From: Haloplasma contractile SSD-17B
Lineage (GTDB): Bacteria > Bacillota_I > Bacilli_A > Haloplasmatales > Haloplasmataceae
Direction of reading: 5' to 3'
NCBI RefSeq assembly: GCF_000215935.2
Contig: NZ_AFNU02000001.1
Location: forward strand, 310,001-374,000
Length of the DNA stretch: 64,000 bases
The translations under genes were made by a program, and so were the position numbers. The notes under the pieces are model-generated. The model did not search any database. It was given only the letters and a program-made list of their open reading frames with translations, and had not been told where the DNA came from. Below, in pieces: positions 2,148 through 39,568 of the stretch (position 1 is its first letter; each line of letters begins with the position of its first letter).

Positions 2148-4661
2148 ATGAAGAAATTAATGGCTTTACTTGGTGTTTTAACTGTAGTAATGGTATTAGC
2201 TGCTTGTACCGAAGAAACTACTGAAGATACAAGTGCTCCTGAACTTACAGGTATTGAAGATGTAACGTTCTATGTAGGTCAAGAAGAATTCGACATATTA
2301 GATGGTGTTACAGCAACAGACGATATAGATGGGGATATTACTAATAACATCGAGACGATTGGTATTGTGAAATCAGATATTCCGGGATTGTATACTGTTC
2401 GATATAAGATTGAAGATGAAGCTGGAAATCTTACACAAGAATCTCGTATTGTTGAAGTTAAACGAGGAAGCGGAGTTGTAAATGGTAAGTTTACTCATGA
2501 TACAACTGGATGGAGAACACATATTCATAGTGTATATGAAGCATCCGATGGATCTTCTGGTACATTTACTGTAGAAAATGAAGAAGGTAAATTTGTTATT
2601 GATGCTTTAGGTGCTAATAATTGGTCTATCCAACTGTTTCAAGAGAAATTTGAATTTGCTAAAGGTGATTTCTACGAATTATCATTCAAGGTAAAAGCCG
2701 ATGAAGCACGTACAATTGAAGTGGTAGTTGAGGACCCTGAAAATGGATATCATAAATACCTTGATACTCAAGAAGTAACTGTAACAAGTGAATGGCAAAC
2801 ATTTACTTATGATGTTGTAATTGATGTAGATACTGAAACTGGTAAACTTGGATTTCTGTTAGGTGCATCAGGTTCTGATCCTAAGGCTACTACTCTTTAC
2901 TTTGATGATGTAGTATTAAAACCTGTAGAGGCAGAAGACGATACAGAAGCTCCTGAAATTACTTTTGAAGATTTAGTTTTAGAAAAAGATGCTACATTTG
3001 ATCCATTAGCAGGGGTAACAATTACAGATAATCAAGATTTTGATTTAACTGTAGCAGATATCGTAGTAGGTGGAGATACTGTTGATACAGCAACACCAGG
3101 AACGTATACAGTAACTTATAAAGCAACTGATGCATCTGGTAATGAAAGTGCTGAGTTCTCTCGTACGATTACTGTAGAGGCTTTAATATTTGTTGACACT
3201 GGAGCTATTGTTAATGGCGATTTTGAAGCAGCAATTGATACTGATAATCCTGAATGGGGTACTTTTGTTGATACTGAAGCTTGGTCAGGTGCAGCAGCAG
3301 CTGGTACTGGTGCTATTACAAATGGTGAGTATGTGTTTGATATCACGGCTGTTGGTGGTGCTGGATGGGCAGTGCAATTACAACAACAGGGTATTACATT
3401 AGAAAAAGGCCAAACATATAAGTTAGTATTTGATGCAAAAGCAGAAACTGCAAGAACTATTGGAGCTGAATTCGGTTATGATCCAGGTAGTGGATTTGTT
3501 TCATATAGTGGTTTAGGAGAGTTTGCAGTAACAGAAACAATGGATACGTATGAATTCATGTTTACTGTAGCAAATGATACTTATGATAATATCCAGTTGG
3601 CATTTGTACTTGGTAAAATAAACGATGCAGCAGCAGGGGATGTAACAATCGATAATGTTCAATTCCTAGCGTTAGATGAAGAACCTGTTCTAGACAATGG
3701 TAACTTTGAAGCATTAGGATTCATAACTTGGTATGGTAATGCTGACTATGCTGGTTATGCTGATGCTTCATTTGATATAATAAATGAAGAAATGGTTATA
3801 GACGTTAAAGAAGTTGGAAATCAAGGTTGGGGAATTCAATTCAATGCTTCAGACTTGACACTTGAAAATGGTAATACATATAAATTAACATTTGATGTTA
3901 AATCAGAGACACCACGTTACTTCCAAGTAAAAGTAAAAGATGATTCAGTAGATGGTGACTGGCAAGTATTTGACGTGAATACTACTTCCACTTATGCTAC
4001 AGAAGAAGTTATCTTTACATATGCAGGATCTACTACTGATTCTGAAATACATTTAGAATTTGGATACTATGAAGATGAAAATGGTACTGAAACATCTGCA
4101 AACGGTAAAGTATATTTAGATAACATCAAACTAGAAGTGCAAGATGATACAGATAACACTGTATATACCGATACTGCACAAATTACTAACGGTACATTTG
4201 ATCAAGCGGTTGACTGGACTTCTTGGTGGGGAGACCAATATAGTGGAGTTGCTGGTGGTACTGCTACTGTAGAGAACGGGGAATTAGTTCTTGACATTAC
4301 TGCTTTAGGAGATGCCGCTTATGCTGCTCAAGTATTCCAAGAACCATTCACTATTAAAGGATCAAGATCATATGTATTAGAGTTTGATATTAAAGCAGAT
4401 GTAGCACGTTCAATCAATGTGCAACTTGGAGAAGGATTAGATGCGGACCCTTGGTTCAATGCATTTATGGATGCATCTCAAGTTGATGTAACAACTGATT
4501 GGGAAACAATTACAATTACATTTGATATGACTCAAGATACAAATGAAAATGGTAAATTAGTATTTGAAGTAGGGAAAATACTAGCAGAAGATGGAACAGA
4601 ACTTTCTGCTACAGGAAAAATCTATATTGACAACGTAATTATTTACCCAGTATTAGGCTAG
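2148..4661 (+). CDS. Lipoprotein with Ig-like and four CBM4/9-like domains
   Basis: 837 residues, ATG preceded by AAGGAGGA 7 bases upstream. A lipoprotein signal peptide ends in LAAC (Cys about residue 20), followed by an acidic Thr/Glu linker. Two DUF5011/HYR-type Ig-like domains (about 32-106 and 269-345) contain the usual 'PGTYTVTYKATDASGN' pattern. Four jelly-roll modules of the CBM_4_9 type lie at about 110-262, 353-509, 514-668 and 677-837; each begins near 'NG.F' and ends with 'YxDNxxL'. No catalytic domain is visible. It is probably a membrane-tethered surface carbohydrate-binding protein that captures glycans. A terminator-like hairpin follows, so it forms its own unit or the end of the upstream one. 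Confidence 0.8.
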   Translation: MKKLMALLGVLTVVMVLAACTEETTEDTSAPELTGIEDVTFYVGQEEFDILDGVTATDDIDGDITNNIETIGIVKSDIPGLYTVRYKIEDEAGNLTQESRIVEVKRGSGVVNGKFTHDTTGWRTHIHSVYEASDGSSGTFTVENEEGKFVIDALGANNWSIQLFQEKFEFAKGDFYELSFKVKADEARTIEVVVEDPENGYHKYLDTQEVTVTSEWQTFTYDVVIDVDTETGKLGFLLGASGSDPKATTLYFDDVVLKPVEAEDDTEAPEITFEDLVLEKDATFDPLAGVTITDNQDFDLTVADIVVGGDTVDTATPGTYTVTYKATDASGNESAEFSRTITVEALIFVDTGAIVNGDFEAAIDTDNPEWGTFVDTEAWSGAAAAGTGAITNGEYVFDITAVGGAGWAVQLQQQGITLEKGQTYKLVFDAKAETARTIGAEFGYDPGSGFVSYSGLGEFAVTETMDTYEFMFTVANDTYDNIQLAFVLGKINDAAAGDVTIDNVQFLALDEEPVLDNGNFEALGFITWYGNADYAGYADASFDIINEEMVIDVKEVGNQGWGIQFNASDLTLENGNTYKLTFDVKSETPRYFQVKVKDDSVDGDWQVFDVNTTSTYATEEVIFTYAGSTTDSEIHLEFGYYEDENGTETSANGKVYLDNIKLEVQDDTDNTVYTDTAQITNGTFDQAVDWTSWWGDQYSGVAGGTATVENGELVLDITALGDAAYAAQVFQEPFTIKGSRSYVLEFDIKADVARSINVQLGEGLDADPWFNAFMDASQVDVTTDWETITITFDMTQDTNENGKLVFEVGKILAEDGTELSATGKIYIDNVIIYPVLG

Positions 4662-4680
4662 TAATAATAAATACTATTTT

Positions 4681-4717
4681 AGAGGGGATTAGCCCAATTT
4701 GGGTTAATCTCTTTTTT
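4681..4717 (+). terminator. Rho-independent terminator
   Basis: Imperfect stem GATTAGCCC / GGGTTAATC with flanking AGAG/CTCT pairs, then a run of T, just after the CBM lipoprotein stop codon. Confidence 0.75.
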
Positions 4718-4821
4718 AAATAGCATTTGTGACTAATGATAGTATTTTGAATGGATAATAAAATCACAAGAGGATCTGATCTAAAAACTTTAAAAATCTG
4801 ATTGTTATTGACTAATTTCGA

Positions 4822-4848
4822 TTGCACTTTTATGGGGATTTGTATAAT
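4822..4848 (+). promoter_or_regulatory. Putative promoter of murC
   Basis: TTGCAC (4822-4827) and TATAAT (4843-4848) with a 15-base spacer, shorter than usual; ATG follows 34 bases downstream. Confidence 0.4.
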
Positions 4849-4881
4849 ATAAATATGAGAACGAGTATTGGAGGTTTATTC

Positions 4882-6168
4882 ATGAAGAACTATCATTTTA
4901 TTGGTATAAAGGGTGCAGGGATGAGCGCGCTTGCATGCATTTTGCACGATTTAGGGAATAAAGTACAAGGTTCTGATGTTACTGAATATTTCTTTACAGA
5001 AGAAAATTTAAAGAAAAGAGATATTCCAATCTATACCTTTAATGTAAATAAAATAGATTCAACTCATACTGTCATTGTTGGAAATGCATTTAATGACCAT
5101 AAAGAAGTAACGACTGCTAAATGTCTTGGATGCAAGATTTATAGTTACAATGAATTTTTGGGTAACCTATGCAATCAGTTTAATTCAATTGCAGTAACAG
5201 GTTCACACGGTAAGACAACAACTACAAACTTAATAGCTCATATCTTAAGTAATTACCTAGAAATAAATTTTCTAGTTGGCGATGGCGAAGGAAAAGGAAA
5301 TCAAGCAGCAGATACCTTTGTTTTTGAAGCGTGTGAGTATAAACGACACTTTTTACACTATACTCCGAACATTTCTGTCATAACTAACGTTGATTTTGAC
5401 CATCCTGATTATTATAAGGACATAGAGGATGTTCAGTCTGCATTTAAACAATTCGGTAATCAATCTGATTTTTTAATAGCCAATGGAGATGATCCAAGTG
5501 CTATGGAAATTACAAAAGAAGGTAACACACTTTATTTTGGTTTAAAAAATACTAATAATTTATACGCAACTAATATAAACTATGACAGTAACTATACCTT
5601 TTTTGATGCAATTTACAACACAATGTATCTAGAGTCCTTTAAAATACCGCTTCACGGAACGCACTCTGTAATGAATGCGTTAGCAGCGATTTTAGTCGCT
5701 CTACGACAATCCGTGCCAGTATCATCGATTAAGAGTAGTTTACAGACATTTAAAGGAACACAACGACGATTCGAAGAAATACCATGTGGTGATCAATTAA
5801 TTATTAATGACTATGCGCATCACCCGGTTGAAATAAAAGCAACTATAAATGCAATTAGAAGTAAATATCCAAACAAACCGTTAGTTGTATTCTTTCAACC
5901 GCATACTTATACAAGAACGATCACGTTCTTAGATGAATTTGTGAATAGTTTATCGCTTGCTGACCACGTTTATCTGCTAGAAATTTTCGGATCTGCAAGA
6001 GAAAAAACAGGTCAAATTACAATTCAAGACCTTAGTAACCGTATTGAAGGTAGTAGGGTAATTGATAAGACAGAATTAGAAATCTTAAATCAGTATAAGA
6101 ACTCTGTGATTGTATTTATGGGTGCTGGTGATATTGATCAACTCATCAAAACTTATATGCAATCTTGA
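4882..6168 (+). CDS. murC: UDP-N-acetylmuramate-L-alanine ligase
   Basis: Adds L-alanine to UDP-MurNAc, the first amino-acid step of peptidoglycan precursor synthesis in the cytosol. From the ATG at 4882 (GGAGG at 4870-4874) the protein is 428 residues, close to Bacillus MurC; an upstream in-frame codon at 4822 lies inside the promoter and is not used. Motifs: N-terminal GIKGAGMSALA nucleotide-binding loop, the Mur-ligase P-loop VTGSHGKTTTTN, and the C-terminal INDYAHHPVE signature. The following ytxG/ytxH-like, aroA and ccpA genes keep the B. subtilis order, which supports MurC rather than another Mur ligase. Confidence 0.93.
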   Translation: MKNYHFIGIKGAGMSALACILHDLGNKVQGSDVTEYFFTEENLKKRDIPIYTFNVNKIDSTHTVIVGNAFNDHKEVTTAKCLGCKIYSYNEFLGNLCNQFNSIAVTGSHGKTTTTNLIAHILSNYLEINFLVGDGEGKGNQAADTFVFEACEYKRHFLHYTPNISVITNVDFDHPDYYKDIEDVQSAFKQFGNQSDFLIANGDDPSAMEITKEGNTLYFGLKNTNNLYATNINYDSNYTFFDAIYNTMYLESFKIPLHGTHSVMNALAAILVALRQSVPVSSIKSSLQTFKGTQRRFEEIPCGDQLIINDYAHHPVEIKATINAIRSKYPNKPLVVFFQPHTYTRTITFLDEFVNSLSLADHVYLLEIFGSAREKTGQITIQDLSNRIEGSRVIDKTELEILNQYKNSVIVFMGAGDIDQLIKTYMQS

Positions 6169-28233: not shown

Positions 28234-29892
28234 ATGGTACAACTTCCTTACATAATTAAAGATGTATTTACAAGACAAGAAACTATTAAATTTGAAGAAC
28301 GACAACAGATTAATGTAAACATATTAAATAAGTTCAGTATTTTAGAAGGATTCGAAATGATGATAAATAATGATTATGTCAAGACTAGTAATGAGTCAGT
28401 AGATCTACAAATCATTATTCATTATAAGAAAGACTTAAAAGAGGATGCTTATAATCTTCAGATTACTCCAGATAAAAAAGTCATTATTTCTTCTAAAAAC
28501 AAAAGGGGAATTCGCTATGCGTTTGCGATTCTTTCATTAGTAATTACAAAGGAAAATAATTGTATTAAAATACCAACCATGATTATTGAAGATGAACCAA
28601 GTTTAAAGAAACGTGGAATTATTGAAGGGTTTTATGGCGTTCCGTGGAGTCATAAAGCAAGGTTAGATGTAATTGATACTATGGCAATGAATCGCATGAA
28701 TACATTTATGTATGCGCCAAAAGATGATTCTTATCATAGAGAGAAGTGGAGAGAGTTATATCCTAAGAAGGAACTAAATAAACTCTTGGAATATAAATCA
28801 AAGTGTGATGAGTACGATATCGATTTTTATTATTGTATTAGTCCAGGAAAAGACTTTGATTATACAAAAGATGAAGAGTTTAAAGCTCTATATCACAAAG
28901 TTGATCAAATCATTAAGCATGGGGTTCGACATTTCTCATTATTATTAGATGATATTGATTATAAACTTAAGGGAGAAAGTTTAAAACGATTCAAGCGACC
29001 TGGTATTGCTCATGCTTATATTTCAAATAAATTATATGACTACATAGAGTCACAAATTATTGATTGTGATTACATCATGTGTCCAACAGAATATTTTCAA
29101 AATTGGGATACTGAGTACCGAACTGATTTAAAACAGCAGATGAATCAAGAAATTGAGGTTTTTTGGACAGGGTATAACACAGTAGCTGAAGTTATAACTG
29201 ATCGCGATGGTCACACAGTTAAAGAATCATTTGGTCATGAGTTAGTACTATGGGAAAACTATCCAGTCAATGATTTTTCTAAAGAGCGCCTTTACCTAGG
29301 GCCGTTAGTAAATAGAAGCACTAAATTGTCAGAGACGCATATCGGGATGGTATCAAATCCAATGAATCAATGGTATGCTTCAAAAATTCCCGTTATTACA
29401 ACTGCTCACTATATGTGGAATCCAAAAAGGTATATGGCGAGTATGTCTCTAAAGGAGGCAATTCAACAGGACATTCCTAATGACTGTATTGAAGCGATGA
29501 GTGTTTTTATAGATGCGAATAGTAAAAGTGTTCTAACTACACATACGCAAGAACAATTTGATCATTATGTAAGCGCTAATAATAAAGATGCTATCAACAA
29601 ATTTTATCATTCACTTAAAGGTGCTACTGATTATTTAATTAAGAATTTAGATCAAAATCTACTAGAGGATATAAAACCGTGGTTCGACCGTGTTCAAAAA
29701 GAATATGTACTATGGAATAAAGTATACAATGAAGAAACAATATCTGAGGATGATATCAAGGAAGTATTTGAAATGGAAGTTGAATTAGGTGTTAATGTGT
29801 TATTAAATTCACTGATTAAATGGAATATAGCCGATGATATCGACTTAGAACAATACATAAAAAAAACAAGATTTAATTTCTGGGGTGTTTAA
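28234..29892 (+). CDS. Cytosolic GH84 beta-N-acetylglucosaminidase (O-GlcNAcase-like)
   Basis: 552 residues, ATG behind AGGAGG. An N-terminal alpha/beta domain (about 1-120) of the type preceding GH84 barrels is followed by the barrel: RGIIEGFYGVPWSHKARLD at about 128, YAPKDDSYHREKWR, YYCISPGKDF, and the catalytic Asp pair in LLLDDIDYK near residue 240. GH84 enzymes remove beta-linked GlcNAc by substrate-assisted catalysis. Most studied bacterial members (for example NagJ, BtGH84) are secreted; this one has no signal peptide or membrane helix, so it probably acts on imported oligosaccharides. It also lacks the C-terminal binding modules of secreted forms. Operon with nanE fits GlcNAc release. 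Confidence 0.88.
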   Translation: MVQLPYIIKDVFTRQETIKFEERQQINVNILNKFSILEGFEMMINNDYVKTSNESVDLQIIIHYKKDLKEDAYNLQITPDKKVIISSKNKRGIRYAFAILSLVITKENNCIKIPTMIIEDEPSLKKRGIIEGFYGVPWSHKARLDVIDTMAMNRMNTFMYAPKDDSYHREKWRELYPKKELNKLLEYKSKCDEYDIDFYYCISPGKDFDYTKDEEFKALYHKVDQIIKHGVRHFSLLLDDIDYKLKGESLKRFKRPGIAHAYISNKLYDYIESQIIDCDYIMCPTEYFQNWDTEYRTDLKQQMNQEIEVFWTGYNTVAEVITDRDGHTVKESFGHELVLWENYPVNDFSKERLYLGPLVNRSTKLSETHIGMVSNPMNQWYASKIPVITTAHYMWNPKRYMASMSLKEAIQQDIPNDCIEAMSVFIDANSKSVLTTHTQEQFDHYVSANNKDAINKFYHSLKGATDYLIKNLDQNLLEDIKPWFDRVQKEYVLWNKVYNEETISEDDIKEVFEMEVELGVNVLLNSLIKWNIADDIDLEQYIKKTRFNFWGV

Positions 29893-29893
29893 A

Positions 29894-31423
29894 ATGAAGA
29901 AAAAAATTGTATTTTTACCATTAGATGAACGACCATGTAATTATGAATTCCCATTTAAACTATTTAATAATCAAGAGTTCGAGATTAAAAGACCGAATAA
30001 GAATTTGATGGGTGACAAGAAAATACCGGCAAACTTAAATGCAATAGAAGACTGGATTAAAAAAGAAGTGACTGATTCATATGGACTGGTCATTTCAATT
30101 GATACATTGCTATATGGAGGGATTGTTCCATCTAGATTACACAATTTTTCAAATGATGAGATTTTACAAAAGATGCAACTATTAAGAGAATTGAAGGAAC
30201 TAAACCCTGAACTTAAACTATTTGCGTTCCACTTAATTATGAGATGCCCGACCTATTCAAGTGATGATGAAGAACCAGACTACTATGAGCATTATGGTAA
30301 AGAGATTTTTGAATTAGGTCGTTTAGATCATCGAATTCAATTAGGGTTAGAATCAGATTTAGAACATGCGAACAAAGAGTTAACTAGACTTAAGAATACA
30401 ATTCCTAAAGACGCACTTTGTGATTATACTAGTAGACGAGTAGTTAACCTAGAAGCTAACAAATTAAGTGTTGATCTTCTCAAGGAAGGGATCATTGATT
30501 TTCTAATCGTACCGCAAGATGATTCCTCACCACATGGATTTACTGCAGTCGATCAAGAGAAAATAAGACGGTATATAGCAGAACAGCAATTACAACTAAA
30601 AGCGTTTATGTATCCAGGAGCAGATGAGGTTTCAATGACATTAATGATGAGACTGGTGAATGAGTATCATAACAATAAACCACTAATCTATGTGCGTTAT
30701 TCTAGTACAAAAGCACCAACTATAATTCCATCATATGAAGACCGCATATTAAATGAATCGGTTAAGTATCAAGTGTTAGCTGCAGGAGGTCTAATTGTTG
30801 ACTCAATGAAAGATGCAGACCTTGCTTTAATGGTTAATGCACCGTCCTATAATATGCTTGGATCAAACCAATTTGATGAACGACATGATGGTTATACAGT
30901 TGAACGTAACCTAGTGGAATTTGTAGAAACAATTGACTATATGATTCATTCATTACAGAAACCAGTTGCAATAGGTGATGTTGCGTATGGTAATGGATCG
31001 GACTTAGAGTTAATGCAATTGTTAGATCAAAAAAATATATTAATGAAAGTTGCTTCCTATGCAGGATGGAATACCTCTTCTAATACTTTAGGTACATGCA
31101 TTCCTCAAGGTATGCTTTATCTCTTATATGAGGATACTAAAACTCATTATGACTTCTTAGCACATCGTTATATTGAAGATACCGGGTACTGTGCACACGT
31201 AAGAAAAGATGTGTGTGACAATGACTTAGAAGAGTTAGGATTTAACTATTTCTACGTAAAAGATCAGAAAGGACCTGTTTCTGAGATTGTAAGAAAGAAA
31301 CTAGAAGATTTTATAGCAAAAACACTTCCTTCAGTAGCGAACAATATTCAAATTACAGATTGTTACATGCCGTGGCGAAGAATGTTTGAAGTTGGAATAG
31401 AAGTGGAGTATAACTCCAATTAA
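29894..31423 (+). CDS. DUF4127 family protein, possible glycan-related enzyme
   Basis: 509 residues from the ATG at 29894 (GGGGTG at 29882), one base after the GH84 stop codon, so translationally linked. It begins MKKKIVFLPLDERPCNYEFP, the hallmark start of DUF4127 proteins of about 500 residues. Other conserved-looking segments are SIDTLLYGGIVPSR, DFLIVPQDDSSPHGFTAVDQ, PGADEVSMTLMMRL and DVAYGNGSDLELMQLL. No signal peptide; cytosolic. The function of the family is unknown. The abundance of Asp, His and Arg in conserved loops suggests a metal-dependent enzyme. Its context with nanE and GH84 argues for a step on an amino-sugar substrate. Confidence 0.8.
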   Translation: MKKKIVFLPLDERPCNYEFPFKLFNNQEFEIKRPNKNLMGDKKIPANLNAIEDWIKKEVTDSYGLVISIDTLLYGGIVPSRLHNFSNDEILQKMQLLRELKELNPELKLFAFHLIMRCPTYSSDDEEPDYYEHYGKEIFELGRLDHRIQLGLESDLEHANKELTRLKNTIPKDALCDYTSRRVVNLEANKLSVDLLKEGIIDFLIVPQDDSSPHGFTAVDQEKIRRYIAEQQLQLKAFMYPGADEVSMTLMMRLVNEYHNNKPLIYVRYSSTKAPTIIPSYEDRILNESVKYQVLAAGGLIVDSMKDADLALMVNAPSYNMLGSNQFDERHDGYTVERNLVEFVETIDYMIHSLQKPVAIGDVAYGNGSDLELMQLLDQKNILMKVASYAGWNTSSNTLGTCIPQGMLYLLYEDTKTHYDFLAHRYIEDTGYCAHVRKDVCDNDLEELGFNYFYVKDQKGPVSEIVRKKLEDFIAKTLPSVANNIQITDCYMPWRRMFEVGIEVEYNSN

Positions 31424-31424
31424 C

Positions 31425-31467
31425 GAAGTATTTTTTCATCAACCATTTGTAGATGAAAAAATACTTC
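31425..31467 (+). terminator. Hairpin after the nanE-GH84-DUF4127 operon
   Basis: Perfect 16-bp stem GAAGTATTTTTTCATC / GATGAAAAAATACTTC with an 11-base loop, one base after the stop codon. No T run follows; the T tract lies inside the stem. Confidence 0.6.
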
Positions 31468-31475
31468 AATATCTA

Positions 31476-31504
31476 TTGACAATATGTCTGAAAGCATTTA
31501 CAAT
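31476..31504 (+). promoter_or_regulatory. Promoter of the surface-enzyme operon
   Basis: TTGACA (31476-31481), exactly 17 bases, TACAAT (31499-31504). Confidence 0.75.
31489..31502 (+). promoter_or_regulatory. Near-consensus cre site in the promoter
   Basis: TGAAAGCATTTACA against TGWAANCGNTNWCA: one mismatch (CA for the central CG). It covers the spacer and the start of the -10, so CcpA binding would block initiation. Confidence 0.6.
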
Positions 31505-31589: not shown

Positions 31590-34500
31590 ATGAATTTAAA
31601 TTTAAAACACAGTTTCAAAAAAATGTTTTTATTACTAATTTTTGTAGGTTTGATATCAATCTCAATTCCAACATTAGCAGCAAGTAGCACATTTAATATT
31701 AATGTTGGAGATGATTGTACAAGTGGAGATGCTTGTAGTATAGAACTGAGTAGTTTATTCGATGTGGATCCCGATGTAGAAACATTGTCTTTACCAGCTA
31801 TGTTCACTTCGGATTTTGAGAAGGATCTTGTTAACATCGACGATGCATACGGTGTAACTGTTGTAGTAGAGCGTGGGCACATCGTTGCTGTATATGATGG
31901 AGCAAATGGGAAGTATAACTTCTCACCAGAATGGATGGATGAACGAACAAGTCTAGATCCAGCTGAATATGCTTCTAATATTGAAATTCCTAAACATGGT
32001 TTTGTATTAGTTATCCCGAGTAGCGCTACAGCTACAAGAGATTGGGCACTTAAAAACATGAGAACGCCTGGTACAAAAGTAGATTTAGATGGGTATACAT
32101 TACCAGCTAATGAAGATGCTAATTACCTTAAGCAAATATCGGATGAAAACGGAAATAAATTAGCGATTGATTTTGTTGATGGACAGTCTTCAAAAGATGA
32201 CTTTGTCTACTTATATACAACAGATTTTAACCTAGGATCAACAGCCGATAGTAAAGCTGAAGGTGTTGCTATTGTAATAAATTCAGATGGTATTGTTGAA
32301 TCTGTATATGAAGGACAAGATGCAATTGACGTAAAAGTGCCTGATTATGGATATGTATTGTATACAAATGGTACTTTAGAGCAATCATTAAAAAATATTG
32401 CAATATTAGGAACTACAATTGCATTAGATGGTGTAATGATACCAGAGGTCAAAACAGTTACGAACGGCAATGAGTTAATCAAAATTGATTATATTGACCC
32501 TGTTAAATATACAGAAACAAAAGATAGTAGAGGTTATCCAACTGATATAGCAGTTGACTTTGTTGCAAAGAACGACAATATTGTAATCTATACACCTGAA
32601 TATCATTATAATTCAACAAAACGAGATATAAATTTTGTTGAATATACAGTGGAAATAACAAATGGAATTCATACAGTAACAGATAAATCAACAGATGGCG
32701 ATACTTATATCCCATTAAAAGGTTACGTTCTTAGTATACCGGTTGATCATCCATACGCTGATGTATTAAATGTAGATGATGTTCTAGACCAAGTGGGCTT
32801 AGAAAACATTAAAACATTTAATTACGCGGTTGAGAATAGAGAGAACGGAGCAAGAATTGTTTTAGACCGAGTTAATGGAGTTCGTAATGCACCAATGACT
32901 GTATATTATGATACATCTTGGGGCGAGTATACAGGAACAAATCAATTCGGTACTGAGATGGTCGTTACATTAAATACCGATACTTACGAATTTGAAGTTG
33001 TTGATTTCCGCGAGTTCGGTGAAGGTGGACAAAAGGGAATTATAATACCAGAAAATAGTTTCGTATTATCGACTTTCGGTCACCCTTATCGTGACTTATT
33101 ATTCGAGGGTGTAAGATTTAACTCGGGAGATATAGTTGAATTAGTTGGCCTAGAATTTATTGAATTAGAAAAATCTGTTGAAGCAACATATGATTACTTA
33201 AATCCAACTCCAGAAGAGAATGAAGTAGGAGCGCCATTCCCAGGTGTTCGAGGAGCAGGGCAACTAAATGTCTATACCGATGAATGGGGAGCTGAAACTG
33301 GTGTTAATGAATGGGGATTTGAAGCAGCAGTTGATGCAAATGGTAAAGTTATAGAGGTTGGAGTTAAAGTTTCTAGTATTCCTGAAGGTGGTTTTGTTGT
33401 ATCGGAGCACATTTCAGGTTCAGGGTTTGTAAAAGGTAAAATAAAACTTGGTTCAAGTGTTATTTTAGATGAAGAAAACCAAACAATTACTGTTTCTACA
33501 ACAGCTGATAGTTACATAGAAGGTGTAAAATCAGATGTTGAATATTCAGAAATATTAATACAGAATGTTGAAAATAAACTCTATGATGTAGATATAGATG
33601 GAGCCAAGCAAGACTTATCAGAAGTTAAGTCATATATTGATGATTTAAGTACATTAGCAGATGACGTTAAAACAATTTCTGATGAGAAACAAAGACTAGT
33701 TAAGTTAGTAGAATTTAAGAACAAACTAACTCAAGCAGATGCGTTAATTAATAGCATTTACTATAAAACATTAGAGTCTAATGTGGTTGAAGCTCGTTCG
33801 ATTTGGCATAGACCGACAGAAAAGTCATTAGAAGAAATTCAAGCTACATTTGATGATTTCGAGAAAAATAATATGAACTTAATATTCGTAGAAACAATGT
33901 GGAATGGTTATTCTATGTTCCCGTCTGAGCATGTCGATTTCCATAAAGACTTCACAGATGCTGACTACGGTGAATATGGAAAAGACTATTTGGCTGCATT
34001 CATAGCTGAGGGTCATAAACGAGGGATTGAAGTTCATGCTTGGATGGAAATATTCTTTGTTGGATACGAAGGATTTAAAGAATCAAATATTTTATCTGAT
34101 CATCCAGAATGGATTATACACAACTATGATTTCAATGCTGAAGAAGAAGAATCCGCTTTATATAATGTCCAAAGAAACGAAGGCGGTCCTTATATCTTTA
34201 TAGATCCTGCAAATCCTGAAGTTCATGACTTTTTAATCACTTACTATGAAGAACTAGTATCAGATTATGATGTTGATGGATTCCAAGTTGACTATATACG
34301 ATACCCAGTTTCTCTTAGAGATAATATAACAGGATTTTCAGATTATGCGATTGATAAATTCAAAGAAGAATATGGATACGCAGAAGGTGATAACATCTAT
34401 GAGTTATTAGACCCTAAGACTCCTGGATCCGATCAAGTATACAATGATTGGAATGAATTTAAAGTTAATAATGTAACGAACTTTGTTGAAAAAACTAAAG

Positions 34501-35429
34501 ATGCGATAAAAGAAATAGATTCTGATTTAATTTTATCAACGGCTATCTTTGCAAGTACATCGGATGCTAAGGATCGAAAAGCTCAAGATTGGCCTACATG
34601 GGTTAATAACGGTTGGATTGATGTAACAGCACCAATGGCTTACTATCCAAAAGCAAGTACAGTTGAAGATAAAATTAAAGATATGGTTACTTATGTTGGG
34701 GGAATTACTTATAACTATGCAGGTATTGCACCTACATACATGGGATTATCTCCTGAAAGTAACGCATATCAAATCATTGCAGCAAGAAACGGTGAAGCAT
34801 TAGGTAGTGCAATATTCGCTTCTCAAAATTTATTAGGCTTAGATCAAATATCTTATGTATATACAAATGGTACACATCGTAAAGCAGCAGTATTGCCGCA
34901 TGCAGAGGTTAATGTTGTACTTGAGGCAATGTTTGCCGATATCTTAGATAAAGCAGATCGTATCTATATACCATCAGAAAAAATGACTGAAGTAGATAAA
35001 ACGGCATTAAGCACTGAATTTGATGTTCTGAAACAAATGCCACATGAAACTGCAGAAGATGTTGCAAATTTAATTAATTCAGTCAATGAATTAATTAATA
35101 ATATTGGAGACTATGGTTCAGGGTATGCTGATAACCGTATCGAAGATGACTTAATATATTTAATTGAAGTGCTAGACGTTAAAGTTTCACGCTTAATGAT
35201 TGATAGTGGTGATTGGGATCCTGAGACTGAACGTGTTCGTCCAAATCCACTAGGTGAAGAGGGTACGAATGATGATGATAATGATGATGAAATAATAAAT
35301 GACGATGAAAATACTGATGATCATTTAGAGGAAAACGATTCAAAAGTTTTATTATATGCTTCAATTGCAGCAGCAACTGTTGTAGTTGTAGCAGGAGGAT
35401 TGTTTATAAGATTGAGGGTAAGAGCATAG
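31590..35429 (+). CDS. Membrane-anchored GHL10 (YngK-like) glycosidase with repeat modules
   Basis: 1279 residues from ATG 31590 (GAGAGGGA upstream); an in-frame TTG at 31476 is the -35 box and is rejected. Order: signal peptide (to about 31, ending LAASS), five degenerate beta-rich modules (signatures near 87-145, 225-260, 350-393, 455-505 and 577-605), a helical stretch (about 650-730), and a GHL10/DUF187 TIM barrel (about 734-1100: EARSIWHRPTEKS, VETMWNGYSMFPSE, EVHAWMEIFFVGYEG, DPANPEVHDFL, VDGFQVDYIRYP). An Asp/Asn-rich linker and one C-terminal membrane helix with Arg tail (about 1253-1279) complete it. The module pattern ends in 'IPxxGYVLV' and recurs in the next protein. It is an outward-facing hydrolase on cell-wall or other glycan; substrate unknown. 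Confidence 0.85.
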   Translation: MNLNLKHSFKKMFLLLIFVGLISISIPTLAASSTFNINVGDDCTSGDACSIELSSLFDVDPDVETLSLPAMFTSDFEKDLVNIDDAYGVTVVVERGHIVAVYDGANGKYNFSPEWMDERTSLDPAEYASNIEIPKHGFVLVIPSSATATRDWALKNMRTPGTKVDLDGYTLPANEDANYLKQISDENGNKLAIDFVDGQSSKDDFVYLYTTDFNLGSTADSKAEGVAIVINSDGIVESVYEGQDAIDVKVPDYGYVLYTNGTLEQSLKNIAILGTTIALDGVMIPEVKTVTNGNELIKIDYIDPVKYTETKDSRGYPTDIAVDFVAKNDNIVIYTPEYHYNSTKRDINFVEYTVEITNGIHTVTDKSTDGDTYIPLKGYVLSIPVDHPYADVLNVDDVLDQVGLENIKTFNYAVENRENGARIVLDRVNGVRNAPMTVYYDTSWGEYTGTNQFGTEMVVTLNTDTYEFEVVDFREFGEGGQKGIIIPENSFVLSTFGHPYRDLLFEGVRFNSGDIVELVGLEFIELEKSVEATYDYLNPTPEENEVGAPFPGVRGAGQLNVYTDEWGAETGVNEWGFEAAVDANGKVIEVGVKVSSIPEGGFVVSEHISGSGFVKGKIKLGSSVILDEENQTITVSTTADSYIEGVKSDVEYSEILIQNVENKLYDVDIDGAKQDLSEVKSYIDDLSTLADDVKTISDEKQRLVKLVEFKNKLTQADALINSIYYKTLESNVVEARSIWHRPTEKSLEEIQATFDDFEKNNMNLIFVETMWNGYSMFPSEHVDFHKDFTDADYGEYGKDYLAAFIAEGHKRGIEVHAWMEIFFVGYEGFKESNILSDHPEWIIHNYDFNAEEEESALYNVQRNEGGPYIFIDPANPEVHDFLITYYEELVSDYDVDGFQVDYIRYPVSLRDNITGFSDYAIDKFKEEYGYAEGDNIYELLDPKTPGSDQVYNDWNEFKVNNVTNFVEKTKDAIKEIDSDLILSTAIFASTSDAKDRKAQDWPTWVNNGWIDVTAPMAYYPKASTVEDKIKDMVTYVGGITYNYAGIAPTYMGLSPESNAYQIIAARNGEALGSAIFASQNLLGLDQISYVYTNGTHRKAAVLPHAEVNVVLEAMFADILDKADRIYIPSEKMTEVDKTALSTEFDVLKQMPHETAEDVANLINSVNELINNIGDYGSGYADNRIEDDLIYLIEVLDVKVSRLMIDSGDWDPETERVRPNPLGEEGTNDDDNDDEIINDDENTDDHLEENDSKVLLYASIAAATVVVVAGGLFIRLRVRA

Positions 35430-35485
35430 GCTCTTTCCCCTATCTCATAATATAAAAAAATTTAATAATACGGAGGGAATTCATT

Positions 35486-38020
35486 ATGAAACAAAAGTTA
35501 ATTATTAGTTTATTATTTTTAGCTGTAGTTTTAGTAGGTTGTAACAACACAGAAGTAGATACAACCGATACTAATACAACAGAAGCATCTGAAGAAATAA
35601 CGGATGCTATATTTAAAGGGGTAGAAGATGTTACCATTACTGTAGATTCTACTTTCGATTCTATGAATGGCATTACGGCGGAAGATTATGATGGAACTGA
35701 TTTAACGGATTCTGTAACAATAGAAGGAACTGTTGATACAGCTACTGCTGGTGATTATGACTTAACATACAAAGTTACTGGAGCGAGTAACAATGAAGTA
35801 ACAACTACTCGTACTGTTATCGTTGAGACTAGTACACCGGTTATTACAGTAGTACCTGAAACAATTGAGATTTATGCAGGTGATGATCTAGATTTATTTA
35901 TAGGGGTTACAGTATCTGGATATAACAGTAATATGCAAGCTAGCATTAAAGATAATGGTGGATTTGATAAGAATACACCAGGTACATACACAATTACATA
36001 TGAGGCGACTGATTCAACTGGAAATTCAGCTACAGCTACTCGTAATGTGATTGTTAATGAAGCAATTGTTAATTATGTACTAGAAGTGCAATACGAATAT
36101 GATAGTAACTGGGGTTCTAAAACATTACCAATCAGCGGTGAAAATATAGTAAGAGCAGATGCTGATTATGATTTAGGAGATCCTACTCAAGTTACTTTAG
36201 TTATTAATGAATCAGATTCAGACATTACAGTAACAACTTCAGATATCTATGGTGAGGCAGCAATTATTGATGCACATGGTAAAGTAATTGAAGGTCGTGA
36301 TGGAGCTAATGGTAAATTAGTTAATAAAGATTACCCTTCTCGTACACAAAATGCCGGTCCATTAGACGCAAATGCCTATGGTGTTGATATGGTAGTTCCT
36401 GCAGGTGGATTCGTAATTGTTGCTCCTAATGAAGGTGGAAGTTTTGATGAAGATGGACGTTCATTTATTGTTAAAAATGTAATCTTTGAATATGGTAATG
36501 TTGTTTCGATTTATGCTGATGATGATAGCGAAATTTTAACAAACTATGTAGATCGTGCACCAACATTTAACTATTTTAAACCATTAGAAGTTGTAGAAGG
36601 AACTACTGCTGATCAAGTCGATGTTTTAGAAGGACTTGTAATCACTGATGATAACGGAACATTTGATCCAAGTGATGACATTGATATACCGCTAACTGAT
36701 GCAGTGGTAAGAGCTGATGCAAACTATGATCCGAATACATTAGCTGACTATACATGGAGTATTGCGGTAGTTGATTCAGAAGGAAATACGCGTGCAGTTA
36801 CAAGAACTGTTACAGTTATTCCGTCAACTCCTGATGCACCAACAATTGAAATTAATGGAAACAGAGTTAACTTCAATCCGAATGATTTAAATACAGACTT
36901 ACTAGAACCAACTCCTTGGAATACAGATGGTGTTGTTATTTATGACTCTAACTATACAGGTAATTTATCAGATGTAATCGTTAAATGGAGTGTAGTTACT
37001 GTTGTTGACGGGAATGGTACAATTATTGAAACTCGTGACGCATACGGTAATGAATTCAATGAAACAAATACTGATATTGATAATCCTGGAACTGCAGATG
37101 GATGGGACGCTCAAGATATGCTTGAAGGATTAACAGTCCCAGACGGTGGATATGTTGTAGTTTTCCTTAACGGATCTGATGCAAGACAATTTGGTTTAGA
37201 TAATGCAAGAGTGTATGGAAGAGAAGTAACCTTCTATTATCTATATCCAACAATCGTAGTTAACAATACAATCAGAGAAGTTGACTATGTAAATCCAGAT
37301 GTAATTAATAATGATGGAATCACTGCATTTACATCAGAATATACTGGTGATTTATCATCATTATCACTTGCTTGGAGTATTTTAGCAATATTAGATGAAA
37401 ACGGGGACGTAATTCTTTCAAGAGACTGGTCAAATCAATATGATGCAAACAATCCAAATGGAACCCCTGCAGAAGGATGGTCTGGTGGAGACATGCTAGC
37501 AGGAATCGAAATACCTGAAAATGGTGTATTACTAGTATTCCCTAACGACGGAGCAAACGGACCTGATTCTCCAAGAACTTTCGGTAAAGATCATTTACTT
37601 GGTTATGGAATCGATGCAGAAATTTTCTCACTAAATTACTACTCTTCTGTGACTGCAAGTGGTGAAACAATTAAAGCTGTTGTGAATCCAGCTACACCAG
37701 TAACAGGTGCAATGATTTTCACTTCAGAATATGGAGCAACAATAGACTTCTCATTAGGATGGGGTGTATTAGTTGTAGTAGGTGAAGATGGAAAAGTTGA
37801 TTTAGTACGTGATGCATTAAATGCAAAACAAATTGACGAATTGCACCCAGATGCTACCAATGCTTTAACTGATATTACATGGACATCTGGAGACTATACA
37901 AACGGAGTTGAAATTCCAGCAAATGGATATGTACTTGTATTCAATGGTACAGATGCAAGAGCGTATGGTTCTGGATTAAGAACATATGATTTAGTCGTTG
38001 ACATTAATATCGTAAAATAA
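35486..38020 (+). CDS. Surface lipoprotein with Ig-like domains and four repeat modules
   Basis: 844 residues, ATG behind GGAGGG. Lipobox LVGC (Cys about 19) and an acidic/Thr linker are followed by two DUF5011-like Ig domains (about 42-118 and 120-195). Four modules then follow with a shared pattern 'V(V/I)D.NG.VIE.RD ... IP..GYVVVF': signatures start near 257, 502, 632 and 760 and close near 303, 549, 675 and 809. A further DUF5011-like segment lies near 365-450. No catalytic motif is visible. The same module type occurs in the upstream GHL10 enzyme (both contain DGANGK), so the two probably recognise the same polymer or contact each other. Confidence 0.75.
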   Translation: MKQKLIISLLFLAVVLVGCNNTEVDTTDTNTTEASEEITDAIFKGVEDVTITVDSTFDSMNGITAEDYDGTDLTDSVTIEGTVDTATAGDYDLTYKVTGASNNEVTTTRTVIVETSTPVITVVPETIEIYAGDDLDLFIGVTVSGYNSNMQASIKDNGGFDKNTPGTYTITYEATDSTGNSATATRNVIVNEAIVNYVLEVQYEYDSNWGSKTLPISGENIVRADADYDLGDPTQVTLVINESDSDITVTTSDIYGEAAIIDAHGKVIEGRDGANGKLVNKDYPSRTQNAGPLDANAYGVDMVVPAGGFVIVAPNEGGSFDEDGRSFIVKNVIFEYGNVVSIYADDDSEILTNYVDRAPTFNYFKPLEVVEGTTADQVDVLEGLVITDDNGTFDPSDDIDIPLTDAVVRADANYDPNTLADYTWSIAVVDSEGNTRAVTRTVTVIPSTPDAPTIEINGNRVNFNPNDLNTDLLEPTPWNTDGVVIYDSNYTGNLSDVIVKWSVVTVVDGNGTIIETRDAYGNEFNETNTDIDNPGTADGWDAQDMLEGLTVPDGGYVVVFLNGSDARQFGLDNARVYGREVTFYYLYPTIVVNNTIREVDYVNPDVINNDGITAFTSEYTGDLSSLSLAWSILAILDENGDVILSRDWSNQYDANNPNGTPAEGWSGGDMLAGIEIPENGVLLVFPNDGANGPDSPRTFGKDHLLGYGIDAEIFSLNYYSSVTASGETIKAVVNPATPVTGAMIFTSEYGATIDFSLGWGVLVVVGEDGKVDLVRDALNAKQIDELHPDATNALTDITWTSGDYTNGVEIPANGYVLVFNGTDARAYGSGLRTYDLVVDINIVK

Positions 38021-38044: not shown

Positions 38045-38067
38045 AGGGAGGGAACATCCCCTCCCTT
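38045..38067 (+). terminator. Hairpin between the lipoprotein and NAGPA genes
   Basis: AGGGAGGG / CCCTCCCT around AACATC, followed by TTCATTTT. It may reduce rather than stop read-through. Confidence 0.6.
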
Positions 38068-38104
38068 CATTTTAAATTATAAGTCAAATACTTAGGTGAG
38101 ATTA

Positions 38105-39568
38105 ATGAGAATTTTTAAAATCTTTACTGTATTAGTACTTGTCATTAGTTTTAATCTATTAGGAGTGTCAGCATCTAATGAATTAACATTATCATTGGGT
38201 ACCATCAACAATATAGATGAAATAGAGCAGGATGGACTGACCTATAAATATATTGAATTAGAAGATGACAAAGCATATCAACAAAAAATCTTTTATGCAG
38301 ATTTTGAACCGGGTGAAAACAGTAATTATGAAATGGTTCTTCACCATATATACGATGATAATTATAATTTTACACTGTCTACCCTAAAAGAAATAGCAGA
38401 TGATTATGAAAATCAAACGGGAAAAAAAGTGTTTGCTGCAGTTAATGGAGATTTTTTTTCAATGGGAGCACCTGTTGACTATTACGCAGTAAATTCAGAT
38501 ATATTGAATGTAGGTCGCTACAGTTGGAAAAATAGCTTTGGTTTTAATAATCAGGGTGATACAGCAATTGGAAGACTAAATCAAACAAATGCAAAACTTA
38601 AAATTTACGTGGGCGAAGAAGTAAAAGAATTCTCAGTAGCTCGAATTAATGAAGAACCACAAGATGGTGAAATTGCTATATTCGAACCAAAACGGATTAC
38701 TGAGATGAACTTTACTAATACAGCAAAGTACATAATGAATTTAGACTCAAATCGTTCGACTGATTATTCTTATCCATTACGTGGGACTGCGTATCGGTTA
38801 ACAACTGGTGATATAACAACTGATGAATCACTGTCAATTAAAGCGAATCAGATTGGAATAGCGATTAAAGGAGATAATGAATTGTCTCAGTATTTTTATA
38901 ATCACTATACCTTTGGAACAAGAATTGAAGTAGTCAAAACTCCATCAGGCAACTATGATGGATTGAATTATGTGATTGGTGGTTATTCTGTATTAGCACA
39001 AAATGGCATTGTTTTACCTAATGGAGCGCATGAAGATAACGGTGGTGATTCCTATGCACCGCGAACATCAGTAGGAATAACACGGGACGGCAAATTTTTC
39101 ATAAATGTAATTGATGGAAGACAATCTGGTTATAGTACAGGAATAACAGTAGAACAACAAGGTCAATTAGTTTATGATTTAGGTGCTGATACAGCACTTG
39201 AACTTGATGGTGGTGGCTCATCTACTTTTCTATTGAGACAGGATGATGAGTTACAACTAATGAACCAGCCATCTGATGGTACGATGCGGAACGTAGTAAA
39301 TGCGGTGCTCATTGTAGAAAAAGAAACGATAGATGATGGTAATAGTGACGATTCGCAAGACCAATCAAACGGCGATTCTACAGGTGAAGATACAACTGAC
39401 AATAGCGATGATGAAAATAACAATGATACAACAGATGATGATATTAATAACATAGGTGATAATGAAGAAGGTTCAACTAATACTAAGAATATGGTATATG
39501 TAGGTGTTATACTAGGTGTGTTATTACTTGGTATAACAACAATTAGTATTATTAAAAAAATAAGATAG
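38105..39568 (+). CDS. Phosphodiester glycosidase (NAGPA family), membrane anchored
   Basis: 487 residues from ATG 38105 (AGGTGA at 38094-38099; the GTG at 38096 is within it). Signal peptide to about 24 (GVSAS), NAGPA/PF09992 domain about 85-395 with VFAAVNGDFFSMGAPVDYY, APRTSVGITRDGKFFI and the C-terminal LELDGGGSSTFLL. Then come an Asp/Ser/Thr/Asn-rich linker of about 60 residues and a C-terminal membrane helix with Lys/Arg end. The family is named after the human enzyme that removes GlcNAc from GlcNAc-1-phospho-6-mannose; bacterial members act on phosphodiester-linked glycans such as wall polymers. Anchor design is the same as in the GHL10 enzyme. Confidence 0.88.
   Translation: MRIFKIFTVLVLVISFNLLGVSASNELTLSLGTINNIDEIEQDGLTYKYIELEDDKAYQQKIFYADFEPGENSNYEMVLHHIYDDNYNFTLSTLKEIADDYENQTGKKVFAAVNGDFFSMGAPVDYYAVNSDILNVGRYSWKNSFGFNNQGDTAIGRLNQTNAKLKIYVGEEVKEFSVARINEEPQDGEIAIFEPKRITEMNFTNTAKYIMNLDSNRSTDYSYPLRGTAYRLTTGDITTDESLSIKANQIGIAIKGDNELSQYFYNHYTFGTRIEVVKTPSGNYDGLNYVIGGYSVLAQNGIVLPNGAHEDNGGDSYAPRTSVGITRDGKFFINVIDGRQSGYSTGITVEQQGQLVYDLGADTALELDGGGSSTFLLRQDDELQLMNQPSDGTMRNVVNAVLIVEKETIDDGNSDDSQDQSNGDSTGEDTTDNSDDENNNDTTDDDINNIGDNEEGSTNTKNMVYVGVILGVLLLGITTISIIKKIR

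Follow-up and report, generated by a model that had tools for sequence, protein, structure and literature searches.

The GHL10 glycosidase and the lipoprotein encoded side by side in Haloplasma contractile SSD-17B share an unnamed domain that occurs in nine copies. It is homologous to the insert of bacterial NAGPA-type proteins and on balance appears to be an accessory glycan- or cell-wall-binding unit serving a locus of three proteins. That the modules are copies of one domain is well supported. Coordinates refer to the window, which is the whole stretch of 64,000 nucleotides that was analyzed.

Modules of the GHL10 protein and the lipoprotein

The GHL10 protein (1279 amino acid residues; 31590..35429, + strand) consists of a signal peptide, five modules (G1-G5), a helical linker, the GHL10 TIM barrel, and a C-terminal membrane helix. 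The lipoprotein that follows (844 residues; 35486..38020, + strand) possesses a signal ending in an LVGC lipobox, Ig-like domains, and four L-type modules (L1-L4); among relatives the number of copies per lipoprotein ranges from 3 to 7. All nine copies claimed in a preliminary description of 31590-38020 are present, and these boundaries are correct. Membership of the modules in Bact_surface_Ig-like or Big_3 was rejected, the Pfam matches shown falling outside them. Another protein with bacterial Ig-like domains, encoded at 2148-4661, has four CBM_4_9 stretches.

The catalytic domain of the GHL10 protein (33834..34676, + strand; PF02638, E 5.6e-34) contains the motif VDYIRYP, with Asp901 at nt 34290. 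A fold search with the large GHL10 model was dominated by TIM barrels, and the structures nearest to the barrel model are Cwp19 (Z 35.4) and the C-terminal domain of PgaB (Z 30.4; PMC5765458). Cwp19 of Clostridioides difficile is an experimentally studied GHL10 peptidoglycan lytic transglycosylase with three CWB2 wall-binding motifs, and its Asp196-Tyr197 pair (PMC6016235) is equated, by motif, with Asp901-Tyr902 here. The two proteins have in common the same barrel (Z 35) and repeated non-catalytic modules, whereas the wall-binding motifs of Cwp19 are CWB2 (PF04122), unlike the module described here.

Two motifs had been proposed to define the repeat. The second, IP..G(Y/F)V.V, when written as [IV]P..[GS][YFV][VL][VIL], has five occurrences in the GHL10 protein and four in the lipoprotein. 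Shuffling each repeat region 2000 times gave on average approximately 0.01 occurrences and never more than 1. The first is looser than written, since the strict form V.D.NG.V.E.RD matches neither protein and the "RD," said to be general, is confined to the lipoprotein copies. The spacing of 35-60 residues between the motifs holds for L1-L4 and G1 but not for G2-G5, where it is less than about 25 residues. The hexapeptide DGANGK is indeed common to both proteins, residing in G1 and L1, and BLASTP alignment of the GHL10 protein with the lipoprotein gave E = 1.5e-5.

The copies fall into two subtypes, a short G-type (G3-G5) and a long-loop L-type comprising the lipoprotein copies, in which the loop of approximately 35-60 residues lies between both conserved motifs. 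An iterated G-type profile, whose seed included G4 and G5, recovered G1-G5 with E values of 2e-6 to 2e-25 and also L4 (E 6e-7); an L-type profile built from lipoproteins and seeded by L1-L4 found these four and, independently, G1 (E 1e-12). Alignment of the L-type profile with the G-type profile gave a probability of 97.6% (P 2.9e-12), against a best value of 3.5% among column-shuffled controls (n=30). A chance repeat is ruled out by the shuffle counts, this alignment, and its shuffled controls.

In the GHL10 protein, all on the + strand, G1 (31788..32183) is an L-type copy resembling the lipoprotein modules by profile and tree, and G2 (32184..32501; G-type profile E 8e-12) branches with G1 among the lipoprotein modules. 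G3 (32502..32879) and G4 (32880..33206) are G-type by profile and tree, and G5 (33240..33521) is the canonical G-type, which scored E 2e-25, and 9e-28 in another search. The lipoprotein copies, likewise on the + strand, are L1 (36071..36556, core 36188-36517), L2 (36863..37297), L3 (37298..37690), and L4 (37691..38017). All four were detected by the L-type profile, L4 by the G-type profile as well; L3 and L4 are represented in an AlphaFold model, and L4 in addition by its fold match.

A tree of 99 modules places the lipoprotein modules, G1, and G2 together on one side of a branch with support of 99/91. G3, G4, and G5 each cluster with their positional counterparts in the GHL10 proteins of Clostridia (100/97, 100/99, and 100/95, respectively). 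Because the tree is built on few columns and has long branches, and G1 also has a profile match, the placement of G2 is less certain than that of G1. The branching of G1 and G2 suggests that modules probably moved between neighboring genes, and the simplest reading is that the GHL10 gene acquired two modules from that of the lipoprotein.

Domain identity

The preliminary description could not assign the module to a named family, and indeed it is covered by no Pfam or NCBIfam model; a Pfam scan of 80 module copies gave chance matches only. In profile searches all nine copies proved related and none was placed in a Pfam or NCBIfam domain. The term "new-looking" is less apt, since the module matches the inserted domain of two solved structures, 5h3k (Slr0280) and 6ozd (BPSS2145), and spans many phyla. 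Structure prediction of L3-L4 with AlphaFold (pLDDT 84) yielded the fold of the NAGPA insert domain, matching 5h3k (386-487) with Z 10.7 over 100 residues (rmsd 2.6) and 6ozd (282-414) with Z 9.8 over 99 residues (rmsd 2.0); this comparison with the PDB covers the L-type pair L3-L4. Beyond these, two DUF192 entries reached Z 5.5-6.0 and all others were below 4. A search of the PDB with the first, small module profiles gave nothing significant, and one with an 80-row profile returned 6ozd 335-387 as the sole significant match (E 1e-4). Homology of the module with the insert of bacterial NAGPA-type proteins is well supported, by fold over approximately 100 residues and, for 6ozd, also by sequence profile. 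The modules differ from the NAGPA/DUF2233-type insert in being mostly tandem repeats outside a NAGPA domain, and the L-type adds its loop of about 35-60 residues. Our literature search found no published functional study of 5h3k or 6ozd.

DUF192 (PF02643) was considered as a family for the module and rejected at the level of the Pfam model, there being no match to its model in the 80 module copies and none in this genome. The DUF192 structures 3m7a, which belongs to that family by profile (E 1.9e-4), and 3pjy may have a similar fold, at Z 5.5-6.0, which is below the level that the tool calls safe. Resemblance of a DUF192 protein to 6ozd (DALI Z 8.8) was independently reported in a 2025 paper (PMC12786226). 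DUF192 would be a more distant fold neighbor, and common descent with the module is only suggested because the profile alignment between them, although it shows the same strand order, is weak (28%).

A probable tenth copy in the NAGPA protein

The gene after that of the lipoprotein (38096..39568, + strand) encodes a NAGPA phosphodiester glycosidase (PF09992 E 8.5e-28, and alignment) with a signal peptide and a C-terminal membrane helix. In bacterial NAGPA proteins the module is internal, with the AVNG part on one side and the DGGGSS part on the other, and the protein here probably carries a tenth, degenerate copy at residues 181-282 (38636..38941, + strand), absent from the preliminary description, as judged by profile-profile alignment. 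With NAGPA members removed beforehand from the module profile, this segment aligned at 62.9% with five orthologues and at 86.8% with eight (P 4.3e-6; next alternative 0.6%). A direct HMM search of the NAGPA protein was not significant (E 26), for which reason the copy is graded only as probable. This copy lies within a NAGPA protein, as do those of locus L149 and others, and G1-G5 and L1-L4 do not.

Gene neighborhood and transcription signals

The order of genes in the window is NanE, GH84, DUF4127, GHL10, lipoprotein, NAGPA, solute-binding protein, permeases, ROK, GH38, oxidoreductase, and an RpiR-type regulator. Five Clostridia MAGs (L080, L081, L083, L085, and L089) display the order GHL10, lipoprotein, and NAGPA-like gene, the last being present whole or as its start, and most have DUF4127 upstream. 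In relatives from the same family, the lipoprotein gene directly precedes that of NAGPA, and the GHL10 genes are located elsewhere in the cluster. The DUF4127 protein is encoded at 29885-31423 and is retained at the same locus in Clostridia; a literature search found no paper naming DUF4127.

Between the DUF4127 and GHL10 genes is an inverted repeat with perfect 15-base arms (31426..31466, + strand; -20.1 kcal/mol, z -7.0), which has no Rfam match and no second exact copy within the window and is a candidate terminator, attenuator, or operator. It is followed by a near-consensus, promoter-like TTGACA-17-TACAAT (31476..31504, + strand), recognized by consensus match only. The TTG start of the open reading frame, at 31476, falls within this site, so that the GHL10 protein likely begins with the ATG at 31590. 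A terminator-like hairpin, found by pattern match only, lies 3′ of the lipoprotein gene (38045..38066, + strand). The promoter-like site and hairpin before the GHL10 gene and the terminator-like hairpin after the lipoprotein gene suggest that these two genes may form a single transcription unit.

Taxonomic distribution and partner enzymes

A genome scan yielded 80 loci in the Bacillota, Actinomycetota, Bacteroidota, Verrucomicrobiota, Candidatus Sumerlaeota, a cyanobacterial MAG, and others. Local models identified GHL10 in 66 of the 90 module-bearing open reading frames and NAGPA in seven (7/90), and Pfam scans added GDSL, GH84, Amidase_2, and GH25 as further hosts. The module displays the repeated fusion to several carbohydrate-active families that is a trait of carbohydrate-binding modules, and the targets of the partner families are cell-wall glycans, aminosugar glycans, or the decorations of either. 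GDSL and GH84 enzymes have single, C-terminal copies. The modules are also C-terminal in an Amidase_2 protein and in GH25 proteins that seem to lack a signal peptide; the C-terminus is the usual location of cell-wall-binding domains.

The apparently signal-less GH25 muramidases, each with two C-terminal modules, are encoded at L145 5038-6255 (by Pfam) and L140 5035-6255 (a close relative), and at L140 a small holin-like open reading frame (4626-4940) lies upstream of the GH25-type gene. A Clostridia protein (L133 3607-7085) has at least five modules alternating with List_Bact_rpt repeats, and no catalytic domain was recognized in it. A surface-type protein with a C-terminal membrane anchor (L180 886-3363), from a genome of the same class, may contain one L-type module (E 2.8e-7). 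A search of viral contigs found no relatives. The only match in a phage record is a Bacteroidales-like NAGPA protein with the module (L169 2497-4033) in MT836039, which is labeled a bacteriophage; the record seems to be misfiled and resembles a Bacteroidales contig.

Proposed function

The observed basis for an explanation consists of homology, gene order, conserved company, and fold match. A role in glycan binding is the best inference for the module, drawn from the associated enzymes by guilt by association. A module binding cell-wall or aminosugar polymers is favored because of the enzyme partners, the C-terminal site in GH25 and amidase proteins, the precedent of Cwp19, and the multi-copy lipoprotein. 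Use of the same module by both proteins would account for the branching of G1 and G2 with the lipoprotein modules, and the earlier proposal that the two are placed on one polymer fits the gene neighborhood and the exchange of modules between genes.

It is unlikely that the modules are simply ligand-free, rigid beads keeping the catalytic domain off the membrane. Tandem arrays next to Ig-like spacers and a helical linker, with a copy number free to vary, would suit such a role, but single copies occur where spacing is unneeded, within NAGPA and C-terminally in enzymes of the GDSL and GH84 types, and the G-type keeps a set of polar residues (R, T.TN, G.E, and SGHG) nearly invariant across phyla. 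These residues are lost in the L-type, which speaks against the favored binding role in that the two subtypes may differ in ligand or have none. Somewhat less probable again is that the modules of the GHL10 protein, lipoprotein, and NAGPA bind one another in one surface complex: the module is in all three neighbors, their gene order is conserved, and G1-G2 share ancestry with the lipoprotein modules, yet the domain is also found in GDSL, GH84, GH25, and amidase enzymes without an adjacent lipoprotein. As an internal domain in NAGPA proteins, flanked by the AVNG and DGGGSS parts, the module may serve catalysis or stability there, but its having originated as a NAGPA lid or substrate-positioning element that works on the attached enzyme's substrate is improbable, given the arrays in a lipoprotein without any recognized catalytic domain and the long helical linker separating the modules from the GHL10 barrel.

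For the favored binding role, we infer the binding, its ligand, and the order of the pathway as follows. Three secreted-looking proteins, which signal sequences predict to be membrane-anchored, carry the module, namely the GHL10 glycosidase (five copies), the lipoprotein (four), and NAGPA (one, probable and degenerate). Acting as a multivalent receptor without enzymatic activity, the lipoprotein would gather an aminosugar-containing polymer at the surface, which the GHL10 and NAGPA enzymes would cut, and the neighboring solute-binding protein, permeases, NanE, GH84, and ROK would import and use the products.

More tentatively, the module may represent a new, cross-phylum family binding aminosugar polymers, and the conserved NanE-DUF4127-GHL10-lipoprotein-NAGPA locus may encode a hitherto undescribed system for uptake, with the multi-module lipoprotein in the role of SusE/SusF. 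The latter are surface glycan-binding lipoproteins of Bacteroidota. The putative analogy lies in a multi-module, non-enzymatic surface lipoprotein beside glycan-degrading enzymes; it is one of architecture, in another lineage, and binding is putative here.

A domain has now been identified where GHL10, NAGPA, GH84, GH25, and amidase proteins from many phyla have an unannotated stretch, and solved structures of it already exist (5h3k and 6ozd). The conserved locus brings together two poorly understood partners, GHL10 and NAGPA, with DUF4127, and its substrate is now testable. If the module binds peptidoglycan or a GlcNAc polymer, this would reveal the substrate of GHL10, NAGPA, and the other attached enzymes.
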